From a virus, in IMG/VR virus record IMGVR_UViG_3300030380_004375, positions 1 through 27,813 of that record: 27,813 bases of DNA; one strand, 5' to 3'. This document shows, in pieces, positions 2,898 to 18,700 of this stretch. The notes under the pieces were generated by a model. The model was not told where the DNA came from. It was given only the letters and a program-made list of their open reading frames with translations, and did not search any database. How positions within the stretch are numbered: the first letter of the stretch is position 1; each line of letters opens with the position of its first letter. A program made the translations under genes and the position numbers.

Positions 2898-3566
2898 TCA
2901 GCCGAAATGAGATCCGGCGGTGATCGTTTCCTCGACGCCTCCCGGCCTCTTCCAGAAGCCGGGGAAGGATCCCGAAGACGGATCCGGATCGAGGATGGTC
3001 ACGCCGTCGAACCGGAACTCGACCGGCCATCCTCGGGTGGTCTCGGACCCGTTCGCACGACGCACCCGAGCGGTGACGTAGTCCATCCCGCAGTAGTCTC
3101 GTCGTTCCATCTCAAGGATCGTGAGGCTGTCGATTCCGTCGATCGGATCGGAGACCTCGATGGTCTGGCCGACCTTCAGATCGGCGGCGGTCGGGGCGGT
3201 CGGGGCAGCCTCGACGGCCTCGACGGCCTCGACGGCCTCGACGGCCTCGACGGCCTCGCAGGCGGCCTCGGCTGCCTTCTTGCCGGCGTAGACCTTGACG
3301 ACCTGAAGGTCTTCGCGTTCGACGGTCCAGCGATACTCCTCGCCTCTGCGAGCGGCGTATCGGGCCTGATCCCGGAGGAACTCGTTCCGGTCGTCTCTCC
3401 ACTTCCGAGCGAGGTCCTCGGATCGGTTCACGACTTCGAGGGTGCCGTCGGCGCGGGCCACGCCCCAGGCGAAGCCGTCAGCCTCGATCGCGTCAAGGAC
3501 TGCCTTGCGGTTGCAGGTCTTCGAGGTGGTGAGTTCGTTGTTGCGGATGCCGTAGATGGTTGCCAT
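2898..3566 (-). CDS. Hypothetical early protein with VEA repeats
   Basis: The product is 222 residues starting MATIYGIRNNE. The start at 3566 has GAAAGGAAGAA six bases upstream; longer in-frame starts run into the divergent control region. The N-terminal half (1-100) is charged and contains a Trp/Arg-rich stretch. A low-complexity linker at about 103-119 is made of VEA tandem repeats. The C-terminal half (about 125-205) has a beta pattern beginning DLKVGQTIEVSDP, like a small barrel domain. I recognise no family. It is the first gene of the minus-strand unit and is divergent from the gene at 3763. Confidence 0.7.
   Translation of the reverse strand: MATIYGIRNNELTTSKTCNRKAVLDAIEADGFAWGVARADGTLEVVNRSEDLARKWRDDRNEFLRDQARYAARRGEEYRWTVEREDLQVVKVYAGKKAAEAACEAVEAVEAVEAVEAVEAAPTAPTAADLKVGQTIEVSDPIDGIDSLTILEMERRDYCGMDYVTARVRRANGSETTRGWPVEFRFDGVTILDPDPSSGSFPGFWKRPGGVEETITAGSHFG
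3208..3258. repeat. 9-bp tandem repeat (GCCTCGACG)n inside a gene
   Basis: There are five perfect copies of GCCTCGACG plus a partial copy (GCCTCG). Read on the minus strand, each unit is GTC-GAG-GCC or a rotation of it, giving Val-Glu-Ala. Because the unit is a multiple of three, changes in copy number only lengthen or shorten the linker. Confidence 0.95.
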
Positions 3567-3582
3567 GGTGTTCTTCCTTTCG

Positions 3583-3600
3583 GTCGGGATCATTCCCGAC
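3583..3600 (-). promoter_or_regulatory. Perfect palindrome at predicted transcription start, operator or leader hairpin
   Basis: GTCGGGA (3583-3589) and TCCCGAC (3594-3600) are perfect inverted arms around TCAT. For the minus strand it lies just downstream of the extended -10 candidate at 3607-3615 and just upstream of the RBS of the 222-residue gene. It could therefore be a repressor operator over +1, an RNA hairpin next to the RBS, or both. A related palindrome lies at 3718-3734. Confidence 0.6.
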
Positions 3601-3606
3601 CCGCTC

Positions 3607-3615
3607 ACTATATCA
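3607..3615 (-). promoter_or_regulatory. Extended -10 promoter candidate for the minus-strand unit
   Basis: The minus strand reads TGATATAGT, matching the extended -10 pattern TGnTATAAT with one mismatch. The region about 17 bases upstream shows no clear -35 box, as is tolerated for extended -10 promoters. The predicted start falls at about 3600, on the edge of the palindrome at 3583-3600. This assumes host sigma-70-type recognition. Confidence 0.4.
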
Positions 3616-3624
3616 GATCGGGAC

Positions 3625-3656
3625 GGAAAAGGGAGGGAAGGGAAGGAAAGGAAAGG
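3625..3656 (+). other. Purine-only tract in divergent intergenic region
   Basis: Thirty-two consecutive purines are made of GGGA and GGAAA units, between the divergent early genes. They include three closely spaced GGG runs with a further GGG at 3620-3622, so a G-quadruplex or triplex form is conceivable but not established. Apart from this tract, the palindromes and the -10 candidate, I see no gene in 3567-3762. Confidence 0.6.
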
Positions 3657-3717
3657 CGGGAATATCGAGAAAGATGGGTGGACAAGGAGCGAGGAATACG
3701 GGAAGATGTCCCCCATC

Positions 3718-3734
3718 GGCGGGATCGTCCCGCC
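3718..3734 (+). promoter_or_regulatory. Perfect palindrome upstream of plus-strand early gene
   Basis: GGCGGGA (3718-3724) and TCCCGCC (3728-3734) are perfect arms around TCG. It shares the CGGGATC / CCCG core with the palindrome at 3583-3600 on the other side of the divergent region. It lies about 14 bases before the GAAAGGAAGAA site of the 3763 gene, so it is either an operator or a leader hairpin. Confidence 0.6.
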
Positions 3735-3762
3735 ACCGCACGAATCGGAAAGGAAGAACCCG

Positions 3763-4410
3763 ATGAGAACCAAGAAGCCCCAGATCACCCGCCCCGGAAC
3801 TCAGGCTGCAACGATGGCCGCTCTAGTCGATCAGTTCCTCGTCTCCGCGACGCCGTTCCGAGGCCACGACGGCTTCGGATGGAACGCGACCCTCAGAATC
3901 GACGGGAAGAAGATCGAGTTCACCGATGACGGATACGGAGGTGGCCTTCAAATCGACAGCGTGGACGGTAGCGGCTTCTCCTATGCTTGCGACCGTGCAA
4001 AGGGCGAGAAGGGCCTCATGGGCCTTTTGAATCGTCTCGCAGTCGAGAATGCACCCGAATCCGACACCCAGCCCCGCGACGGGTTCGAGATCGACGGAGA
4101 GCCGTGGATCGCCACGGAGGTCGATGGCTACTGGGAAATCTGGGTGGACAACATCGTCGCTCATGCTCTGGAGCAGAAGGATATTCGCAAGGCCATCGGC
4201 GCGAAGAAGATCGCGTGGAGGACCGAGGGCCAGCCGGAGAACGCCTACTGGAACCGACCGATCGGTGATGAAGATGCCACCGTCGAGGCGATCGTGGCCC
4301 ACGCCGCGAAGGAAGGGAAGCCGATCGAGTGGATCATCGGCGTGAAGACCGCCTCGGGCATCGGGGCGGCAAGGAAGGCCGTCCGGGCGACCACGGTGGC
4401 CCCGTGTTGA
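3763..4410 (+). CDS. Hypothetical early protein
   Basis: The product is 215 residues starting MRTKKPQITRPG. ATG 3763 is set by the RBS GGAAAGGAAGAA a few bases before it; the frame is open further upstream but runs through the intergenic palindrome. The N-terminal half has a beta-type pattern with a Gly/Asp-rich turn (FTDDGYGGGLQIDS). The C-terminal half has paired Trp segments (YWEIWVDN, AYWNRP). No family is recognised. It is the first plus-strand gene after the divergent region, a position typical of early genes that act on the host or on regulation. A strong UUCG hairpin follows its stop. Confidence 0.7.
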   Translation: MRTKKPQITRPGTQAATMAALVDQFLVSATPFRGHDGFGWNATLRIDGKKIEFTDDGYGGGLQIDSVDGSGFSYACDRAKGEKGLMGLLNRLAVENAPESDTQPRDGFEIDGEPWIATEVDGYWEIWVDNIVAHALEQKDIRKAIGAKKIAWRTEGQPENAYWNRPIGDEDATVEAIVAHAAKEGKPIEWIIGVKTASGIGAARKAVRATTVAPC

Positions 4411-5569: not shown

Positions 5570-5760
5570 ACACCGAGAAGATGATCCCGATCGACGAGGT
5601 GATCGACCTCGTCGAGAACCGAACGGGATGGAGACCAGAACTGCGAACGGTTCGCGGCTGGCAGAAGAGCGGGAAGATCGAAGGAAACAAGGTCGGCGGG
5701 CGCGTGTTCGTCCGACCCGCATCAGTCGAGCGGATGCTCGACGGAAAGGAGAGCGCGTGA
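5554..5760 (+). CDS. Excisionase/MerR-like winged-helix DNA-binding protein
   Basis: The product has 68 residues. The arrangement IPIDEVIDLVENRTG..LRTVRGWQKSGKIEGNKVGGRVFVRPASVERML resembles the small winged-helix proteins of the excisionase/MerR-N type: a recognition helix, a Gly-containing wing with basic residues, and a second helix. ATG 5554 overlaps the RecT-like gene by 16 bases, and its stop overlaps the next start as GTGA. Since no integrase is present, a true excisionase role is unlikely; a regulator or replication accessory is more plausible. Confidence 0.65.
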   Translation: MAEQVNTEKMIPIDEVIDLVENRTGWRPELRTVRGWQKSGKIEGNKVGGRVFVRPASVERMLDGKESA

Positions 5761-6227
5761 AGTACCCACCCGAAGATACCAACACCCCGACGGAGGGAGT
5801 ACCGTCCGCAGAACCCGGCGTGTACCTGATGAAGGTCGCAGCCTGGAAGGAAGACATTCAGACGAAGAGCGGCATCATGAAGGACTTGATCGACTTCGTC
5901 GGCGATGGACCCGACGGCGTCGCGGTCGGTGCCTCGCTCTGGATGCGGGGGCCGTACGTTCGACCCGACGGATCGAAGTCGAAGGGTACGGTCTGGCAAT
6001 ACCGCGAACTCGCGAAGGCCCTCGGCGACGAAGCCGTGAAGCAGTACCGAACGAAGGACGCGAACGGCCACTCGATATTCGACCCGATGGACTGGACCTC
6101 GATCCCGGTGAAGATCACCGTGAACGACTACGGGGTCGAGAAGATCGAGGAGGCGAGCGCAGCGGCGGAATCTGAGAAGACGACCACGCCTCCGGCGAAG
6201 CGTGACGACGACGAGATCCCATTCTGA
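5757..6227 (+). CDS. ssb-like: SSB-like protein with DDDEIPF C-terminal tip
   Basis: The product has 156 residues. The protein ends in DDDEIPF, the acidic-then-hydrophobic tip used by bacterial SSB to recruit replication and repair proteins; a disordered Ala/Glu/Thr/Pro linker (about 128-149) precedes it. The body (about 18-125) has beta-strand character but lacks the classical bacterial SSB sequence, so it may be one of the divergent phage ssDNA-binding families. The start is GTG 5757 in a GTGA overlap with the wHTH gene. Position after the RecT-like gene supports a recombination role. Confidence 0.7.
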   Translation: MKYPPEDTNTPTEGVPSAEPGVYLMKVAAWKEDIQTKSGIMKDLIDFVGDGPDGVAVGASLWMRGPYVRPDGSKSKGTVWQYRELAKALGDEAVKQYRTKDANGHSIFDPMDWTSIPVKITVNDYGVEKIEEASAAAESEKTTTPPAKRDDDEIPF

Positions 6228-6249: not shown

Positions 6250-6666
6250 ATGCCGAAGAAATACATGAACGACTTCCAGCGAGTGAAGGCTGGGAACTGG
6301 CTCGAGAATCAAAAGGCGTGGATCGCGACTGACCCGTCGATCCAAGTCATAGCCGACGCGGCGACGGGGGAACTCGGCCACCGCGTCACCGGATCCTTCG
6401 TGAAGTCCTACCTCCAGGAGACCGAGTGGTTCTCGAAGATGAAGAAACAAGCGAAATCGGAACCAGCAACCCTGCGGGATGTCCATCACGCCTTGAGGCT
6501 CACACTCGACGCACTGATGGAGGTCGTCGAAGGAGAGCCGATCTGTTCTCGGGAGATCGAGTCCACGATCAAGCAGGCGAGGGCCGTGATAAGCACCACG
6601 GAGTCGTCGCAGGCGATGCAACTTGACCTCATCACCGAGGACATCATGAGGGGAGGGCATGCTTGA
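6250..6666 (+). CDS. Hypothetical protein in recombination block
   Basis: The product has 138 residues, starting MPKKYMNDFQRVKAG after a GAAAGGAAGA RBS. It is mostly helical with a basic N-terminal half (about 1-75) that could contact DNA, and a helical acidic C-terminal half. No motif allows a family assignment. It overlaps the methyltransferase start by eight bases, so the two are probably coupled. Confidence 0.7.
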   Translation: MPKKYMNDFQRVKAGNWLENQKAWIATDPSIQVIADAATGELGHRVTGSFVKSYLQETEWFSKMKKQAKSEPATLRDVHHALRLTLDALMEVVEGEPICSREIESTIKQARAVISTTESSQAMQLDLITEDIMRGGHA

Positions 6667-7477
6667 CATGGATGAAGATCAGATCCTCAGCCTCTGCTCC
6701 GGGATCGGAGGACTCGACCTCGGACTCTCCGCCGGACTTCGAGCGGTTGGCCGATCTCCTCGAATGGTCTGCATGGTGGAGAGGGAAGCCTTCCCGCTCG
6801 CGGTGTTGGCTCGCCAGATGCAAGAAGGGAGGATGGATGAATGTCCTCTCTGGCTTGGAGATCTCCGAGACCTACCCCTCGACGAACTTCCGGCGATCGA
6901 CTGGATCTCAGGGGGCTACCCTTGCCAGCCATTCAGCCATGCCGGGAAGCGACTGGGAGACGACGACCATCGTCATCTCTGGCCCACCATCTACAGACTC
7001 GTCGAGTCTCTTCGACCTCGGGGAGTCTTCTTCGAGAACGTCGCAGGCCACCTCACGCTCGGCCTCGATCTCGTCCTTCAGGACTTGGCGAGATGTGGTT
7101 ACCGCTGCGCGTTCGGACTGTTTACTGCGGAGGAAGTCGGCGCGCCACACCGACGCGAGCGCGTCTTCATCCTCGGCGTGGCCGACGGCGAACGCGAGAG
7201 ACTGGAAGGGGACATACCTCACACTAACCAGGAAGGACGGGAGAAAACGAGGCGACCTGCTTCCCGATGCTGTGAACATCGAGGAGGGTGGCCCTCCCGA
7301 CCAAGAGAACCCCAAGAAAGATGGGAACCGTCGAGAACAACTAAACCCGACATGGGTCGAGGTTCTGATGGGCTACCCTGCAGGGTGGACAGACTTCGAT
7401 CCCTCGGGAACGCCGTAGTCCCGCAGCAGGCCGAGACGGCCTTCGTCACGCTGTGGAAGGAGGTCGCCCGATGCTAG
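6659..7477 (+). CDS. C5-cytosine DNA methyltransferase
   Basis: The product has 272 residues and transfers a methyl group from SAM to carbon 5 of cytosine. Family motifs are in order: I (LCSGIGGLDLGL, 12-23), the WLGDLRDLP segment (65-73), IV with catalytic Cys89 (GGYPCQPFSHAG), VI (ENV, 126-128), VIII (HRRERVFILG, 164-173) and X (GNAVVPQ, 250-256). The target-recognition region between VIII and X is short (about 75 residues), so specificity cannot be read. No restriction nuclease is beside it, which suggests self-protection of phage DNA. ATG 6659 overlaps the previous gene; ATG 6668 is an alternative with a better distance from GGGAGG. The 3' third is also meaningful in another frame (see findings). 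Confidence 0.9.
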   Translation: MLDMDEDQILSLCSGIGGLDLGLSAGLRAVGRSPRMVCMVEREAFPLAVLARQMQEGRMDECPLWLGDLRDLPLDELPAIDWISGGYPCQPFSHAGKRLGDDDHRHLWPTIYRLVESLRPRGVFFENVAGHLTLGLDLVLQDLARCGYRCAFGLFTAEEVGAPHRRERVFILGVADGERERLEGDIPHTNQEGREKTRRPASRCCEHRGGWPSRPREPQERWEPSRTTKPDMGRGSDGLPCRVDRLRSLGNAVVPQQAETAFVTLWKEVARC

Positions 7478-8391
7478 ATGGAGCCTTCACGTCGCCGAAG
7501 ATCCGACTCCTCGCGGCGATCACCGGGAAGCCGTGGCCGCACGCTCTCGGGCTGGCGGGACTGCTCTGGCGGTTCGCTGGCAAGCATGCTCCGACGGGGG
7601 CGGTGGGGACTCACTCGGACGAGGAGATCGCGATCTCGCTCGAGTGGACCGATGAGGCGGGGGACCTGATCGAGGCCCTCGTCCGATGTCGCCTCCTCGA
7701 CGAGGCCCCACCGCCCGAGAGGCTGCTCGTCCACGACTGGCCGGAACACGCACCCCGCTACGTTCGAGCCTCGCTCCAGAGAGCGGGCCTCGACTTCTCC
7801 CCGCGCTACGGCCTGCGGCATGATGCCGTGGATCTGCGGCATGATGCCGTCACTACAGTCCCCACTATAGACCGCTCTACAGTCGGAACTGGTGATGGGA
7901 CTGTAGTCGGGACTACCTCTTCCTCCTCCTCCTCCTCTACCTCCTCCTCCTCCTCCTCCTCCTCCCTTGTAAGAGCATCAGCGAGCGCGAGAGATCTCGC
8001 GGAGCAGGTGTGGAACTGTTACGTCCCAGGGAGGAAGCAGGGGAAGAAGATCGGGATCCAAGCGATCGAGACCTCGATGATGAGACTCGGGATGGAGACG
8101 GGGAAGACCCTCGAGGAGGCCGCTCAGATCATGGCCGAACTCACGACGAACGACGCCGCCCGGTTCGTCGAGGAGATCAGGACGGGCGAGACCGAGATCC
8201 GGTTCGTCCCGCAGGGGGCGACCTACTTCAAGAATGAAAGATGGGAAGACGAGAATGAAGACATCACCCGAAAGCAGATCGACGCCGCTCGGATCACTGA
8301 CGAGATCGCCAGAGCGAGAGCCGCCTACGAACTGGGAGGCGAACTGGATCCTCCTCCGGAACCTCTGGCCCGATTGGACGCCCACGGATGA
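7471..8391 (+). CDS. Replication-initiator-like protein with poly-Ser linker
   Basis: The product has 306 residues. ATG 7471 is set by AAGGAGGT upstream and overlaps the methyltransferase stop by seven bases. Residues 1-110 form a helical N-terminal domain (SPKIRLLAAITG..HALGLAGLLWRFAGKHAP..LLVHDWPEHAPRYVRASL) resembling phage replication proteins with a winged-helix fold. A low-complexity linker (about 113-165) contains LRHDAV twice and two serine runs. The C-terminal domain (about 168-270) ends in ATYFKNERWEDE, similar to the ATWLN.RWED ending of several phage initiators. The linker DNA holds repeats that look like an origin. It overlaps the next gene by about 140-160 bases. Confidence 0.65.
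   Translation: MLDGAFTSPKIRLLAAITGKPWPHALGLAGLLWRFAGKHAPTGAVGTHSDEEIAISLEWTDEAGDLIEALVRCRLLDEAPPPERLLVHDWPEHAPRYVRASLQRAGLDFSPRYGLRHDAVDLRHDAVTTVPTIDRSTVGTGDGTVVGTTSSSSSSSTSSSSSSSSLVRASASARDLAEQVWNCYVPGRKQGKKIGIQAIETSMMRLGMETGKTLEEAAQIMAELTTNDAARFVEEIRTGETEIRFVPQGATYFKNERWEDENEDITRKQIDAARITDEIARARAAYELGGELDPPPEPLARLDAHG
7813..7965. other. ori: Putative replication origin inside initiator-like gene
   Basis: Two identical 17-bp units (ctgcggcatgatgccgt) start at 7813 and 7834, a 21-bp period, and each contains the palindrome CGGCATgATGCCG. They are followed by three copies of CTACAGTC (7853-7860, 7877-7884, and inverted at 7899-7906), an exact 11-bp inverted pair (7852-7862 with 7897-7907), a GTAGTC-GG-GACTAC palindrome (7903-7916), and a pyrimidine tract of TCC units (7918-7965). 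Lambdoid phages carry their iterons in the middle of the initiator gene; the layout here is the same, but function is inferred. Confidence 0.5.
7918..7965 (+). repeat. Trinucleotide repeat (TCC)n, poly-Ser coding
   Basis: Runs of TCC/TCT encode seven serines, then one Thr (ACC at 7939), then eight TCC serine codons. On the top strand the tract is almost pure pyrimidine. Slippage changes linker length without changing frame. Confidence 0.95.
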
Positions 8392-8824
8392 GCAGATCCG
8401 GGAGGTCTGGTTCAGGGCCTTCGACAAGGTCCACGGGGTCTCCGGAGCGAAGCGGATCAACCAGGACGCACTCCGAGAGGCGATCCTCGCGGTCGCAAGA
8501 TCGAAGCGGTTCAAGGATCCAGTATTCATCGACATCTCCGATGCGTACCGCCACGAGACGAACCGGGTCCACGCCGAGATCCAAAGGGCGAGGAGTTCCT
8601 CGAGGACGACCGACGAACAAGTGAAACTCAACGAGGAGGCGATTCGGATGAGGGACCAGATCACGGACTGGTCGGCGGAGCGACTGATCGCCGCTCGCCA
8701 ACTGGTCGAGAAGAAGGTCGTGACCTTCGTCGGGAAGTCCACGAACCCGGAGACGTGGTCGCGGGTCTACATCGGGTGCCTCATCGCGGCAGACGAGGAA
8801 CTCCGGGAAGAGGCGGACGAGTGA
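8234..8824 (+). CDS. Possible helicase-loader-like replication accessory protein
   Basis: The product has 196 residues from ATG 8234, or 189 from ATG 8255; neither has a strong RBS, and no other ATG or GTG start precedes the well-formed part beginning at about residue 33. That part reads NWILLRNLWPDWTPTDEQIREVWFRAF, then INQDALREAILAVARSKRFKDPVFIDISDAY. The layout (W/L-rich start, a helix with W..AF, then a segment ending at a Pro-containing stretch) recalls lambda P-like loaders, but the similarity is weak. The position right after the initiator-like gene fits an O-P pair. The 140-160-base overlap with the upstream gene is unusual. Confidence 0.55.
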   Translation: MKDGKTRMKTSPESRSTPLGSLTRSPEREPPTNWEANWILLRNLWPDWTPTDEQIREVWFRAFDKVHGVSGAKRINQDALREAILAVARSKRFKDPVFIDISDAYRHETNRVHAEIQRARSSSRTTDEQVKLNEEAIRMRDQITDWSAERLIAARQLVEKKVVTFVGKSTNPETWSRVYIGCLIAADEELREEADE

Positions 8825-15241: not shown

Positions 15242-18200
15242 ATGCCGATCACCGACCTCTTCGGGCTGCTTCAGAAGCGGCAGACCACGCCGGACAAGTT
15301 CCTCGCCTCGAGCGTGAACGTCGTCGCGGGCGGCCAACAGGGAGCGATCCGCGCCCCGTTCAGCCCCGATCGGGGCGTTCGATCCTATCGCTCTTGGGTC
15401 TACGCCGCCGCCACCATCAACGCGAACGCCGTCGCGGCGATCCCGCTCCGGCTCTACGCGAAGAGGGACGAGACCCTCGCACCGACTCGAGCGATCGGGC
15501 GACGCCGGAAGGCGTACATGATGGGCGACGGTCACGGCGACCAGCGGCCGTCCTCGAGCGTGATGAGGAAGGCGGCGATGTACGGCGACGACTTCGAGGA
15601 GGTCGTCGGGAACCACCCGGTCCTCGACCTGCTCAGTGAGGCGAACCCGTTCCTGAACGGCTTCGACTCGACCGTCCTCCGCGTCCTATACGGCGAACTG
15701 ACGGGGAACGCCTACCTCCACCCGATCGTCGATGAGGCTACCGGCCTCCCCTCTGAACTCTGGCCGCTCGCGTCCCACTATGTCGAGGTGATTCCCGACG
15801 AGGAGCAGTTCATCCGTGGCTATTTGTACGGGCAGAACGCCCAGATGAGGCAGGTCTTCGACACCGACGAGGTGATCCACTTCCGGCGACCGAATCCGGG
15901 CAACTTGTTTTACGGACTCGGGAAGGTAGAGGCCGCCTACGGCTCGATCGTCGCGAACGACGCGGTCCACGAGATGGACATCTCGACCTTCGCGAACCAG
16001 GCCCGACCCGACTACGCGGTAGTCGTCAAGGGCTCGCCGAGCGGCGACCAACTCGACCGATTCCAGCAACAGGTCGAGAACCGCCTGAAGGGGTCGCGGA
16101 AGGATGGCTCGTTCATCACGGTCACCGGCGATGTCCAGTTCACGCCGCTCAACTTCCCGCCGAAGGATCTGGCCGGACGCGAGGAGATCGTCGAGGAGAT
16201 CGCCGCCGTCTTCGGCGTCCCGGTCTCGATGCTGAAGGCGAACGATCCCAACCTCGCGTCGGCTCAGACCGGCTTCGCTCAATGGCGAGAGGGGACGATC
16301 CTCCCCCTCGTCCGCATGGACGAGCAGGAACTGAACCAGAGCCTCCTCCCGATGTTCGGCCTCGAGGAGACTCACGTCCTCGCCTACGATAATCCGGTGC
16401 CGACCGATCGGGCGTTTGAACTCCAAGAGAGGCAGACCGCCGTCGCTGGCGGATGGCGAAAGCCGAACGAGGCGAGGCTCGAGGAGGGCCGTGAACCCGT
16501 CGAGAACGAGTTCGCCGACCAACTCCTCGTCGGAGGCCAGCCGCTCGGCGGAGCCGCTCAGGCGGGACCGGGACTGCTCTCAATGGATCAGGCGGAGCCG
16601 AAGGAGATCAGCGACGCCGGGCCAGACCTCGAGATCGCGTCGAGCCTTCTCGAGGCGGTTCGCGAGCGACGGCTGACCGGCTACGCGGTGGTGAAACTTC
16701 TCCAGGTCGCCGGGTTCACGCGGGCGATCGCCGAGAAGATGGTGGAAGCCGAGGAGAAGGCAGAGCCGAAGAAGAAGGTCCTCATGATGTACCGCCGCCC
16801 CGGCGACCTCTACGAGACGGCGGAGGAGGCGGAGGCGGTCGCGGCGGTGCTGGGATGCTCGGGCCACCACGTTCACGACGTTGACGGTGTGACGATGTAC
16901 ATGCCCTGTGCGGAGATGGCGGATTACACCGAGATCACCGGCGAAGAGCATCGCGGCGATGGCGACCTGACCCTTCAGGAAGCGAAGGCCCTCGAGGACG
17001 TGGACCTGAAGCCGACGGCCCAGATGTCCGAACTCGCCGAGCGTGGTCTTCGCCTCCGCGAGGAACACGGGCGAGGCGGGACCGAGGTCGGCGTCGCTCG
17101 AGCGAGGGATATCAAGAACGGCGAGAACCTCAGCCCGGAGACCGTCGGGAGGATGGCGAACTTCTTCAGCCGTCACCGCGTGGACCTCGAGGCCCCGGCG
17201 GCTGACCCGAGCCACGAGGACTACCCCTCGGCGGGCGTGATCGCGTGGCTCCTCTGGGGCGGCGATCCCGCGAACCCGGACGAGGCGGGAGCCGCGTGGT
17301 CTGATCGGAAACTCCAAGAACTCGAGAGAGCCAGAGAGAAGGCGGAGGGCGACCGGGTCTCATCCACACCGGCGAAGCCGAGCGAGCGGATCGAAGGCTC
17401 CGACGAGAACCCCGAGGGGTCGGCGTCTGGATCTCGAGGTGGGATCGAGATCAGCGAGGCCACCGAGAAGGGCCTGAAGAACAAGGTCGAAGAACATAAC
17501 GAGAAGCACGGCGACGAGAAGGGAAAGAAGGTGGACCTCGGGATGCTGAAGGCGGTCTACCGTCGAGGAGCCGGAGCCTTCTCGACATCCCACCGACCAG
17601 GGATGAGCCGCCAGCAATGGTCGATGGCTCGAGTGAACGCCTTCCTCTACCTCGTCCGCAACGGGCGACCGAAGGACGCGAAATACGTCGGCGATAACGA
17701 CCTCCTCCCGAAGGGACACCCGAAGAAGGAGGACAAGAAGTCGAAGTGGCTCGACTGGGAGATGCCGGGCTGCAAGTGCAAGAACCACAAGGCGGAGGTC
17801 TACGAGTGGCCGGACGAAACGAAGTTCATGAGGCTCGAGATCGAGGGCCTCGCGGCGGACTTCGACCGGCTGCGACCGAAGGCCGCGACCGATGAACCCG
17901 ACGCCGACGAGGACATCCGAAGCGATGAGAAGCGGACCCCGGCGATGGCGATCGCGTCGGTAGTCAAGGACGGACTCGAGAGCGTCCAAGCGAGGCTCAT
18001 CAAGGCCCTCGAGTCTGGCGAGATCGTGCCGACACCGACGAAGGCCGCGAACGAGGACGCCGCGATCAGAGCCATCCTCGCTGACCTGCTCTCGGTCAAG
18101 GGGAAGATGATCGACGACCTCGCCGCCGCTATCCGTTCCGCCGCCGCGAGTGGTGGATCAGTCGGAGCGGCTCGCGTGAACGAGATCCTCGGACAGGCTG

Positions 18201-18700
18201 GACGCTCCCGCATCTCGACTCCCGAGATGTCGAAGGCCCTCGAGAGGGCGATCGCCGAGCGAGCGAGCCTGATCGTCGCGAGCGTGATCGACGCGACCGT
18301 GGACCGGACGATCTCCAGAATGGACGGCGACTTCTCGATCGGGAAGGAGATCGACCGGCTCCGATCCGATTACGGCTTCAGTGCCGGACGAGCCGAGACG
18401 ATCGCTCGGACCGAGTCCGCGAACGCATACCACGAAGGCCAGATCGACACCTGGAAGGAGGCCGGAGTCGTGAGGGAGAAGAAGTTCCTGAAGGCTCCGG
18501 GAGCCTGCGAGTTCTGTGTCGCCGTGGACAAAGCGTACGGGGCGAAGGGGAAGGCGTTGGCGGTCGATACCCCGATGGTCCGTGGAGGTGTCACGATTCG
18601 CGGAGCCGAGGGCGGCACCCTCACGCCGAAGTTCGACTCTCAGGGCATCGTCCACCCGAACTGCCGGTGCGACTTCATGCCCGTCCTGGAGGATCTCTGA
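15242..18700 (+). CDS. Portal - inserted small domains - MuF-like minor head protein fusion
   Basis: The product has 1152 residues. Residues about 1-430 are an HK97-type portal (SYRSWVYAAATINANAVAAIPLRLY..NLFYGLG..PVSMLKAND). After a linker come three small modules: one with GHHVHDVDGVTMYMPC (about 539-554), one with ELAERGLRLREEHGRGGTEV and ENLSPETVGRMANFFSRH (about 594-645), and one with MLKAVYRRGAGAFSTSHRPG and MARVNAFLYLV (about 768-806). I recognise these as recurring phage head-region modules of unknown function. The C-terminus (about 1000-1152) is SPP1 gp7/MuF-like, with ARTESANAYHEGQ, a CEFC pair and a HPNCRC ending. No frame break is seen. Confidence 0.9.
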   Translation: MPITDLFGLLQKRQTTPDKFLASSVNVVAGGQQGAIRAPFSPDRGVRSYRSWVYAAATINANAVAAIPLRLYAKRDETLAPTRAIGRRRKAYMMGDGHGDQRPSSSVMRKAAMYGDDFEEVVGNHPVLDLLSEANPFLNGFDSTVLRVLYGELTGNAYLHPIVDEATGLPSELWPLASHYVEVIPDEEQFIRGYLYGQNAQMRQVFDTDEVIHFRRPNPGNLFYGLGKVEAAYGSIVANDAVHEMDISTFANQARPDYAVVVKGSPSGDQLDRFQQQVENRLKGSRKDGSFITVTGDVQFTPLNFPPKDLAGREEIVEEIAAVFGVPVSMLKANDPNLASAQTGFAQWREGTILPLVRMDEQELNQSLLPMFGLEETHVLAYDNPVPTDRAFELQERQTAVAGGWRKPNEARLEEGREPVENEFADQLLVGGQPLGGAAQAGPGLLSMDQAEPKEISDAGPDLEIASSLLEAVRERRLTGYAVVKLLQVAGFTRAIAEKMVEAEEKAEPKKKVLMMYRRPGDLYETAEEAEAVAAVLGCSGHHVHDVDGVTMYMPCAEMADYTEITGEEHRGDGDLTLQEAKALEDVDLKPTAQMSELAERGLRLREEHGRGGTEVGVARARDIKNGENLSPETVGRMANFFSRHRVDLEAPAADPSHEDYPSAGVIAWLLWGGDPANPDEAGAAWSDRKLQELERAREKAEGDRVSSTPAKPSERIEGSDENPEGSASGSRGGIEISEATEKGLKNKVEEHNEKHGDEKGKKVDLGMLKAVYRRGAGAFSTSHRPGMSRQQWSMARVNAFLYLVRNGRPKDAKYVGDNDLLPKGHPKKEDKKSKWLDWEMPGCKCKNHKAEVYEWPDETKFMRLEIEGLAADFDRLRPKAATDEPDADEDIRSDEKRTPAMAIASVVKDGLESVQARLIKALESGEIVPTPTKAANEDAAIRAILADLLSVKGKMIDDLAAAIRSAAASGGSVGAARVNEILGQAGRSRISTPEMSKALERAIAERASLIVASVIDATVDRTISRMDGDFSIGKEIDRLRSDYGFSAGRAETIARTESANAYHEGQIDTWKEAGVVREKKFLKAPGACEFCVAVDKAYGAKGKALAVDTPMVRGGVTIRGAEGGTLTPKFDSQGIVHPNCRCDFMPVLEDL

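Follow-up and report, generated by a model that had tools for sequence, protein, structure and literature searches.

Can a stretch of phage DNA that encodes a disordered protein linker serve, at the same time, as the replication origin of that phage? We asked this of a virus record from IMG/VR, a 27.8-kb sequence (27,813 nt) that is referred to here in its whole length as the window. The original prediction had placed an iteron-like origin inside an initiator-like gene of this window, and all the elements that it named were recovered at or near the expected positions. The gene order is conventional for a tailed phage, with RecT-like, SSB-like and methyltransferase genes, the initiator, a gene of unknown function, a nuclease, and portal and major capsid genes, and the GC content of the record ranges from 58 to 69% in 1-kb windows. 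The genes that concern us most are the following.

6659-7477, C5 methyltransferase gene, overlapping the start of the initiator by 7 bases
7471-8391, + strand, initiator-like gene of 306 amino acids, assigned through PHROG 9474 ('replication initiation protein') and 12 homologs
8315-8824, + strand, gene behind the initiator, characterized by tblastn, alignment and AlphaFold2

Behind the initiator, all 12 relatives encode a homolog of the 8315-8824 product, with 24-65% identity (tblastn and alignment). For this product, AlphaFold2 gave a confident all-helical model with one long central helix (pLDDT 89), and searches of Pfam, PHROG and PDB folds all ended without a match. Its position in the gene order makes it a possible helicase loader of an undescribed family. 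Elsewhere in the window, the SSB-like protein (5694-6227) was assigned from the gene layout and from an acidic tip at its C-terminus, DDDEIPF; it is conserved in 10 relatives, and a PHROG search gave no match for it. The window encodes two methyltransferases, and in two contigs (L012 and L094) the region homologous to the C5 methyltransferase gene is fragmented by inserts a few hundred bases long. A single open frame of 1152 amino acids (15242-18700) encodes a portal protein in residues 50-520 and, near residues 960-1151, domains of the minor head/morphogenesis type, and an open frame on the minus strand (2898-3788) contains an in-frame AVEAVEAVEAVEAVE repeat.

A profile search matched residues 8-279 of the initiator to PHROG 9474 (E=2.4e-14), which places the protein in that family. 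PHROG 270 matched at E=5.6e-5, and a 'primosomal protein' PHROG matched weakly at E=0.008. Fold matches of the protein were to a phage 'replisome organizer' and to 'primosomal protein 1'. We utilized AlphaFold2 with 13 homologs to model its structure, which divides as follows.

7492-7785, + strand, N-terminal winged-helix domain (residues ~8-105), with an alpha/beta wHTH pattern and pLDDT ~80-92 over most of its length
7816-7980, + strand, disordered linker bearing the DNA elements (residues 116-170), pLDDT ~30
7981-8235, + strand, C-terminal helical domain (residues ~171-255), pLDDT 73-89 over most of its length

In a PDB fold search, the N-terminal domain gave weak MarR/ArsR-type wHTH matches, none of them below E=0.1. 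No DnaD/DnaB-like domain was recognized in the initiator, for which the PDB fold search returned weak MarR-like matches and none at E<=0.001; a search of solved structures by sequence gave low-complexity matches only. The gene at 7471-8391 is predicted from these models to encode an initiator with an N-terminal winged helix, a disordered linker and a helical C-terminus. The repeats lie in its linker-coding part, between the winged helix and the C-terminal domain, just as the original prediction had placed them, and the winged helix is a candidate reader of these repeats.

The true repeat unit is 12 bp long, corresponding to four codons of the form (A/T)CT-RYA-G(A/T)C-NNN, and is built on the palindrome CTRYAG, in which the half-sites ACT and AGT surround a 2-bp centre. 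The array spans 7852-7917 and consists of five units, the fourth of which is degenerate, and a half unit, with TCT/TCC/ACC codons following at once up to 7965. In codon order, it reads as follows.

7852-7863, + strand, unit 1, ACTACAGTCCCC, kept in relatives
7864-7875, + strand, unit 2, ACTATAGACCGC, kept in relatives
7876-7887, + strand, unit 3, TCTACAGTCGGA, kept in relatives
7888-7899, + strand, unit 4, ACTGGTGATGGG, degenerate, retaining the 12-bp register and lacking CTRYAG
7900-7911, + strand, unit 5, ACTGTAGTCGGG, which together with position 7899 forms the perfect palindrome GACTGTAGTC
7912-7917, + strand, closing half unit ACTACC, a bridge from the array to the tract that most relatives retain
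7918-7965, + strand, Ser-rich pyrimidine tract of 16 TCT/TCC/ACC codons, inside a 57-nt G-free run (7912-7968)

The units are dyad-symmetric, with the CTRYAG core in four of the five and a perfect GACTGTAGTC-class site at 7899-7908. The three copies of CTACAGTC that had been noted earlier are real and all belong to this array (7853-7860 and 7877-7884 on the + strand, 7899-7906 on the - strand), and no further copy of CTRYAGWCNNNNCTRYAG occurs elsewhere in the 27.8-kb record. We compared these elements with 20,000 synonymous recodings that followed this phage's codon usage. None of the recodings was as extreme for the CTACAGTC copies, for the four CTRYAG or for the 57-nt G-free run, and the fraction was 0.0004 for the GTAGTC-GG-GACTAC palindrome (7903-7916). 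The TCC pyrimidine tract was likewise borne out, as the TCC-type codons at 7918-7965.

Two other repeats from the original prediction did not hold their proposed role.

7813-7829 and 7834-7850, + strand, identical 17-mers CTGCGGCATGATGCCGT encoding LRHDAV twice, 21 bp apart, clade-local and not a conserved iteron

The two 17-mers exist with their 21-bp period (recoding fraction 0.013), but identical copies are lost in relatives at 70-82% identity and absent at ~50%. The 21-bp pair CGGCATGATGCCG was rejected as an iteron, being degraded in L002-L004 and absent beyond them. Since the pair is not kept in relatives, the argument that a 21-bp period puts the sites on the same DNA face is unsupported; the conserved spacing is 12 bp and locked to codons. 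The 11-bp inverted pair (7852-7862/7897-7907) is exact, but 0.10 of the recodings equalled it, and we rejected it as a feature in itself.

We next consider whether the array is kept as DNA or as protein. Within the 60-codon linkers of 14 initiators, CTRYAG occurred 48 times, against 1.8 expected and a maximum of 10 in 5,000 synonymous recodings based on each contig's own codon usage. A stricter null, in which the linker's own synonymous codons were permuted among identical residues, still gave 10.2 with a maximum of 22 (4,000 permutations), although p-values from such counts overstate the evidence because related sequences are not independent. The contrast between the array and the remainder of these genes is unaffected by this: in distant pairs, the same codon was used at identical residues with a frequency of 0.75 in the array and 0.64 in the tract versus 0.33 elsewhere, and for shared Thr residues 0.83 in the array versus 0.30 elsewhere. 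The array draws on codons that are rare in these GC-rich genomes: within their codon families in this phage, ACT, ACA, ATA and GTA account for 7, 4, 3 and 4%. The recoding, codon-permutation and codon-identity tests agree that the DNA repeats exceed the needs of the protein repeat, as had been claimed. The linker DNA is under selection beyond protein needs.

Scans of viral contigs in IMG/VR yielded 12 full-length relatives of the initiator with 40-84% identity. The 12-bp array was recognizable in 11 of them, mostly just ahead of a TCC/ACC-rich Ser/Thr tract, with fewer intact units in L003, L008 and L095; L013 (42% identity) had no CTRYAG array. The residues spelled by the array vary among relatives (TTVP, TIDR, STVG, TVVG, TAVG, TTDP and TTEG), whereas NCT-RYA-GWC stays while the amino acids change (TTVP, TIDR, TVVG, TAVG and TTDP). 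In most cases, T closes the first codon, RYA forms the second and G opens the third. The comparison with related phages that the original prediction had proposed, whether the repeats are kept while linker codons change, thus came out in its favour for the 12-bp array, which is kept as DNA as its residues vary. When the whole collection was scanned for ACTACAGTCNNNACTRYAG, 76 stretches were found, mostly of two units in unrelated frames, so the pattern by itself is not specific. Matches inside an initiator frame reached at least five units in the L002 and L009 contigs only, and the five units in L040 lie in an unrelated tandem array.

To place this clade within its family, we used the N-terminal domain for a wider scan and obtained 56 loci, which together with named phages and two cellular loci provided 59 distinct linkers for testing. 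Proteins of PHROG 9474, including that of Mae-JY24, share the N-terminal winged helix and a linker with DNA-level repeats. They differ from the window in their motifs (GTGCGCAC, ACCGTTCA, TACTCCAGTA, TCGCGA and GGACGTCC), and their C-terminal domains are often different. One linker (L103/L134) carries GTGCGCAC in all three frames, and L138/L141 repeats TACTCCAGTA. Microcystis phage Mae-JY24 (L113) carries ACCGTTCA at 11-bp spacing in its initiator linker, with a new frame for each copy, and judging from this pattern, the repeats are likely to be the origin of a named, complete phage. Palindromes of the GTGCGCAC type occur in two or three frames across another branch of the family (L103/L134, L014, L107/L135, L109/L162, L108/L128 and L106/L139).

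Motif classes, with labels assigned by eye, required 16 changes on the tree of N-terminal domains, compared with 27.5 when the labels were shuffled. CTRYAG marks the clade of the window, L013 excepted. In the sister clade, at a weakly supported fork of a tree with few columns, L118 (CTRYAG) and L119/L120 (ACTAGT) have related ACT/AGT half-sites. In the CTRYAG-bearing L102/L118, recognizable similarity to the window is confined to the N-terminal part plus linker, which suggests that the motif travels with the winged helix. A winged helix that reads the repeats would be expected to leave just this clustering of motifs on the N-terminal domain tree.

The second element of the linker is the tract. 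All 17 linker Ser codons in the window are TCC or TCT, versus a fraction of 0.34 in the rest of the record, and the TCC tract is a candidate strand-specific loading or unwinding element. By eye, family linkers often have palindromes followed by short-period C-rich repeats, namely (TCC)n here and (CCAGAG)n, (CCAAGCCTAG)n or (CCAATC)n in other lineages. A DNA period of 6 exceeded recoding in 23 of the 59 linkers versus 1 of 170 controls, and the best 45-nt stretch of CC-minus-GG asymmetry was significant in 12 of 59 versus 1 of 170; plain CC-minus-GG asymmetry over whole linkers reached p<0.01 in 1 of 59 and was not significant family-wide. We found no AT-rich unwinding element beside the array, either in the window or in close relatives. 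The GC content of array and tract is ~53-62%, and within 1 kb the 40-nt stretch richest in AT (62% AT) lies 318 bp downstream.

How does this arrangement compare with known origins? In phage lambda, 19-bp imperfect inverted-repeat iterons lie beside an AT-rich tract in the middle of gene O (PMC7466680), and alleles of O that carry in-frame deletions within the AT-rich portion of the origin complement in trans (PMC6022878). The lambda parallel drawn in the original prediction is sound as to layout: both phages have dyad-symmetric repeats in the middle of the initiator gene with a distinctive tract on one side, and the repeats bind the initiator in lambda and are predicted to do so here. It fails at the AT-rich flank, since none adjoins this array, which instead has 12-bp frame-locked units, a CTRYAG core and a C/T tract. 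The searches run here returned no lambda O match. In Bacillus phage SPP1, direct repeats of oriL lie within gene 38 and are bound by its product, the replisome organizer gp38, and the origin has an AT-rich unwinding element (PMC6316719). The window likewise has direct repeats within the initiator gene, presumably bound by the gene's own product as in SPP1. The next gene encodes a helicase loader in SPP1 and here the conserved helical protein with no solved-structure match; unlike in SPP1, no AT-rich unwinding element adjoins the array.

A further resemblance concerns B. subtilis oriC, where DnaD binds one strand and needs two 5'-TnnT-3' motifs (PMC10201434), which TCCTCC would supply serially here. 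Like the DnaD recognition element (DRE) and DnaA-trios, the tract is a short-period, strand-asymmetric element beside initiator sites; unlike the DRE, most other members of the initiator family have 6- or 7-nt C-rich repeats, not TCC. Because the structure search gave no relation to DnaD, the resemblance to the DRE is analogy only. As the AT-rich element, a defining feature of that type, was not found, we file the segment as a putative variant of the initiator-embedded origin and not as lambda/SPP1-type proper. It resembles the lambda and SPP1 origins in layout and DNA-level conservation and departs from them in the length and sequence of the unit, its codon-locked register and the missing AT-rich element.

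Taken together, we consider it probable that the linker-coding segment of the initiator gene has a second use as the origin of replication of this phage, where the initiator binds. This reading draws on the PHROG annotation, the fold matches and the RecT-like, SSB-like, methyltransferase and nuclease genes nearby, as well as on DNA-level selection, family-wide repeats, motif-domain clustering and the precedent of lambda and SPP1. From these we infer the identity of the origin and, with it, initiator binding, strand opening and helicase loading. The N-terminal winged helix would bind the 12-bp units through the ACT...AGT half-sites with their RY centre, and several initiator copies would line up along the array. 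At the G-free TCC tract 3' of the array, the strands would be parted, or one strand would be held for loading of the replicative helicase, perhaps with assistance from the C-terminal domain and the product of the next gene. Against the origin reading stand the lack of an AT-rich flank, the single frame, the marginal result for the window in the 8-mer repeat test described below, L013 without an array, and GC skew, which is uninformative and shows no turn at the array site along the record.

The main rival is that the array is an operator through which the initiator or another regulator controls its own operon or lytic timing, while replication starts elsewhere. DNA-level constraint and motif-domain clustering show a DNA site, not its role, and gp38 of SPP1 also binds a second site, oriR. 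However, ~380 bp after the start codon, inside a coding region, would be an unusual place for an operator. The site also turns up at the corresponding position in other members of a family whose annotation is replication initiation, and most members of the clade have the TCC tract after it as another conserved element. We regard an operator as unlikely.

Could the linker be a low-complexity coding sequence and nothing else, with TTVx and Ser repeats generated by in-frame slippage and the DNA repeats as a by-product? The units of this clade keep to a single reading frame with a 12-bp (four-codon) spacing locked to codons, so in-frame duplication could also yield their array; the linker is disordered, and pure TCC runs slip easily. 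Codon choice, however, is far from that of the genome and is kept across proteins that are ~50% identical, and residues vary while the DNA motif stays. The wider family adds repeats in shifted frames. Pairs of 8-mer repeats exceeded synonymous expectation (p<0.01) in 53 of 59 linkers, and out-of-frame pairs (offset not a multiple of three) did so in 37 of 59. The corresponding counts for any frame and out of frame were 7/59 and 3/59 for the N-terminal portions of these genes, 5/52 and 3/52 for the portions behind the linker, and 7/214 and 7/214 for other ORFs; the null is slightly lenient, yet the contrast between linkers and controls is large. In-frame duplication cannot be the source of the out-of-frame excess. 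Taken singly, the window falls at the margin of this 8-mer test (p=0.051; out-of-frame p=0.42), as its units are degenerate and TCC runs were left out of the count; its case rests on the codon tests. We disfavour the coding-only explanation and consider it very improbable.

An RNA element, with hairpins in the mRNA (or lagging strand) controlling translation or termination, seems less probable again. The window segment folds better than its shuffles (z -3.56) into two hairpins, but one of these arises from the 21-bp repeat, which is local to the clade, and the other from the 11-bp inverted pair, which an equal threshold did not recover in L002-L004; conservation applies to the repeated unit and not to a pairing scheme. 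Least probable of all, with hardly any chance of being right, is a target array for a phage-encoded methyltransferase or a remnant of restriction-site avoidance. CTRYAG reaches a ~100-fold higher density in the linker than over the remaining record (22.2 vs 0.22 per kb), and the initiator begins where the C5 methyltransferase gene ends. However, an AT-rich site such as CTRYAG should be infrequent in a GC-rich genome, no upstream methyltransferase turned up in several array-bearing relatives (some of whose loci are truncated upstream), and other lineages carry unrelated motifs.

Returning to the origin reading, we looked in the openly accessible literature for a survey that treats origins in initiator linkers systematically and found individual cases only. 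We tentatively propose, as an idea with a little less than an even chance, that the linker is a composite origin in coding sequence throughout a large phage initiator family. Lineage-specific palindromes would evolve with the winged helix and be followed by a short-period, strand-asymmetric tract, which would replace the AT-rich unwinding or helicase-loading element in a way comparable to the DnaD recognition element. This raises the question of how strands open where a GC-rich C/T tract, and not AT-rich DNA, adjoins the iterons. If the origin reading is right, the DNA specificity of the initiator is written beside its DNA-binding domain, and many lineages would offer natural pairs of wHTH and cognate site from which recognition rules could be learned. 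The origin and its reader could then be located in uncultured phages from sequence alone, and under the family-wide proposal the origin and initiator specificity could be readable from one gene across thousands of them.
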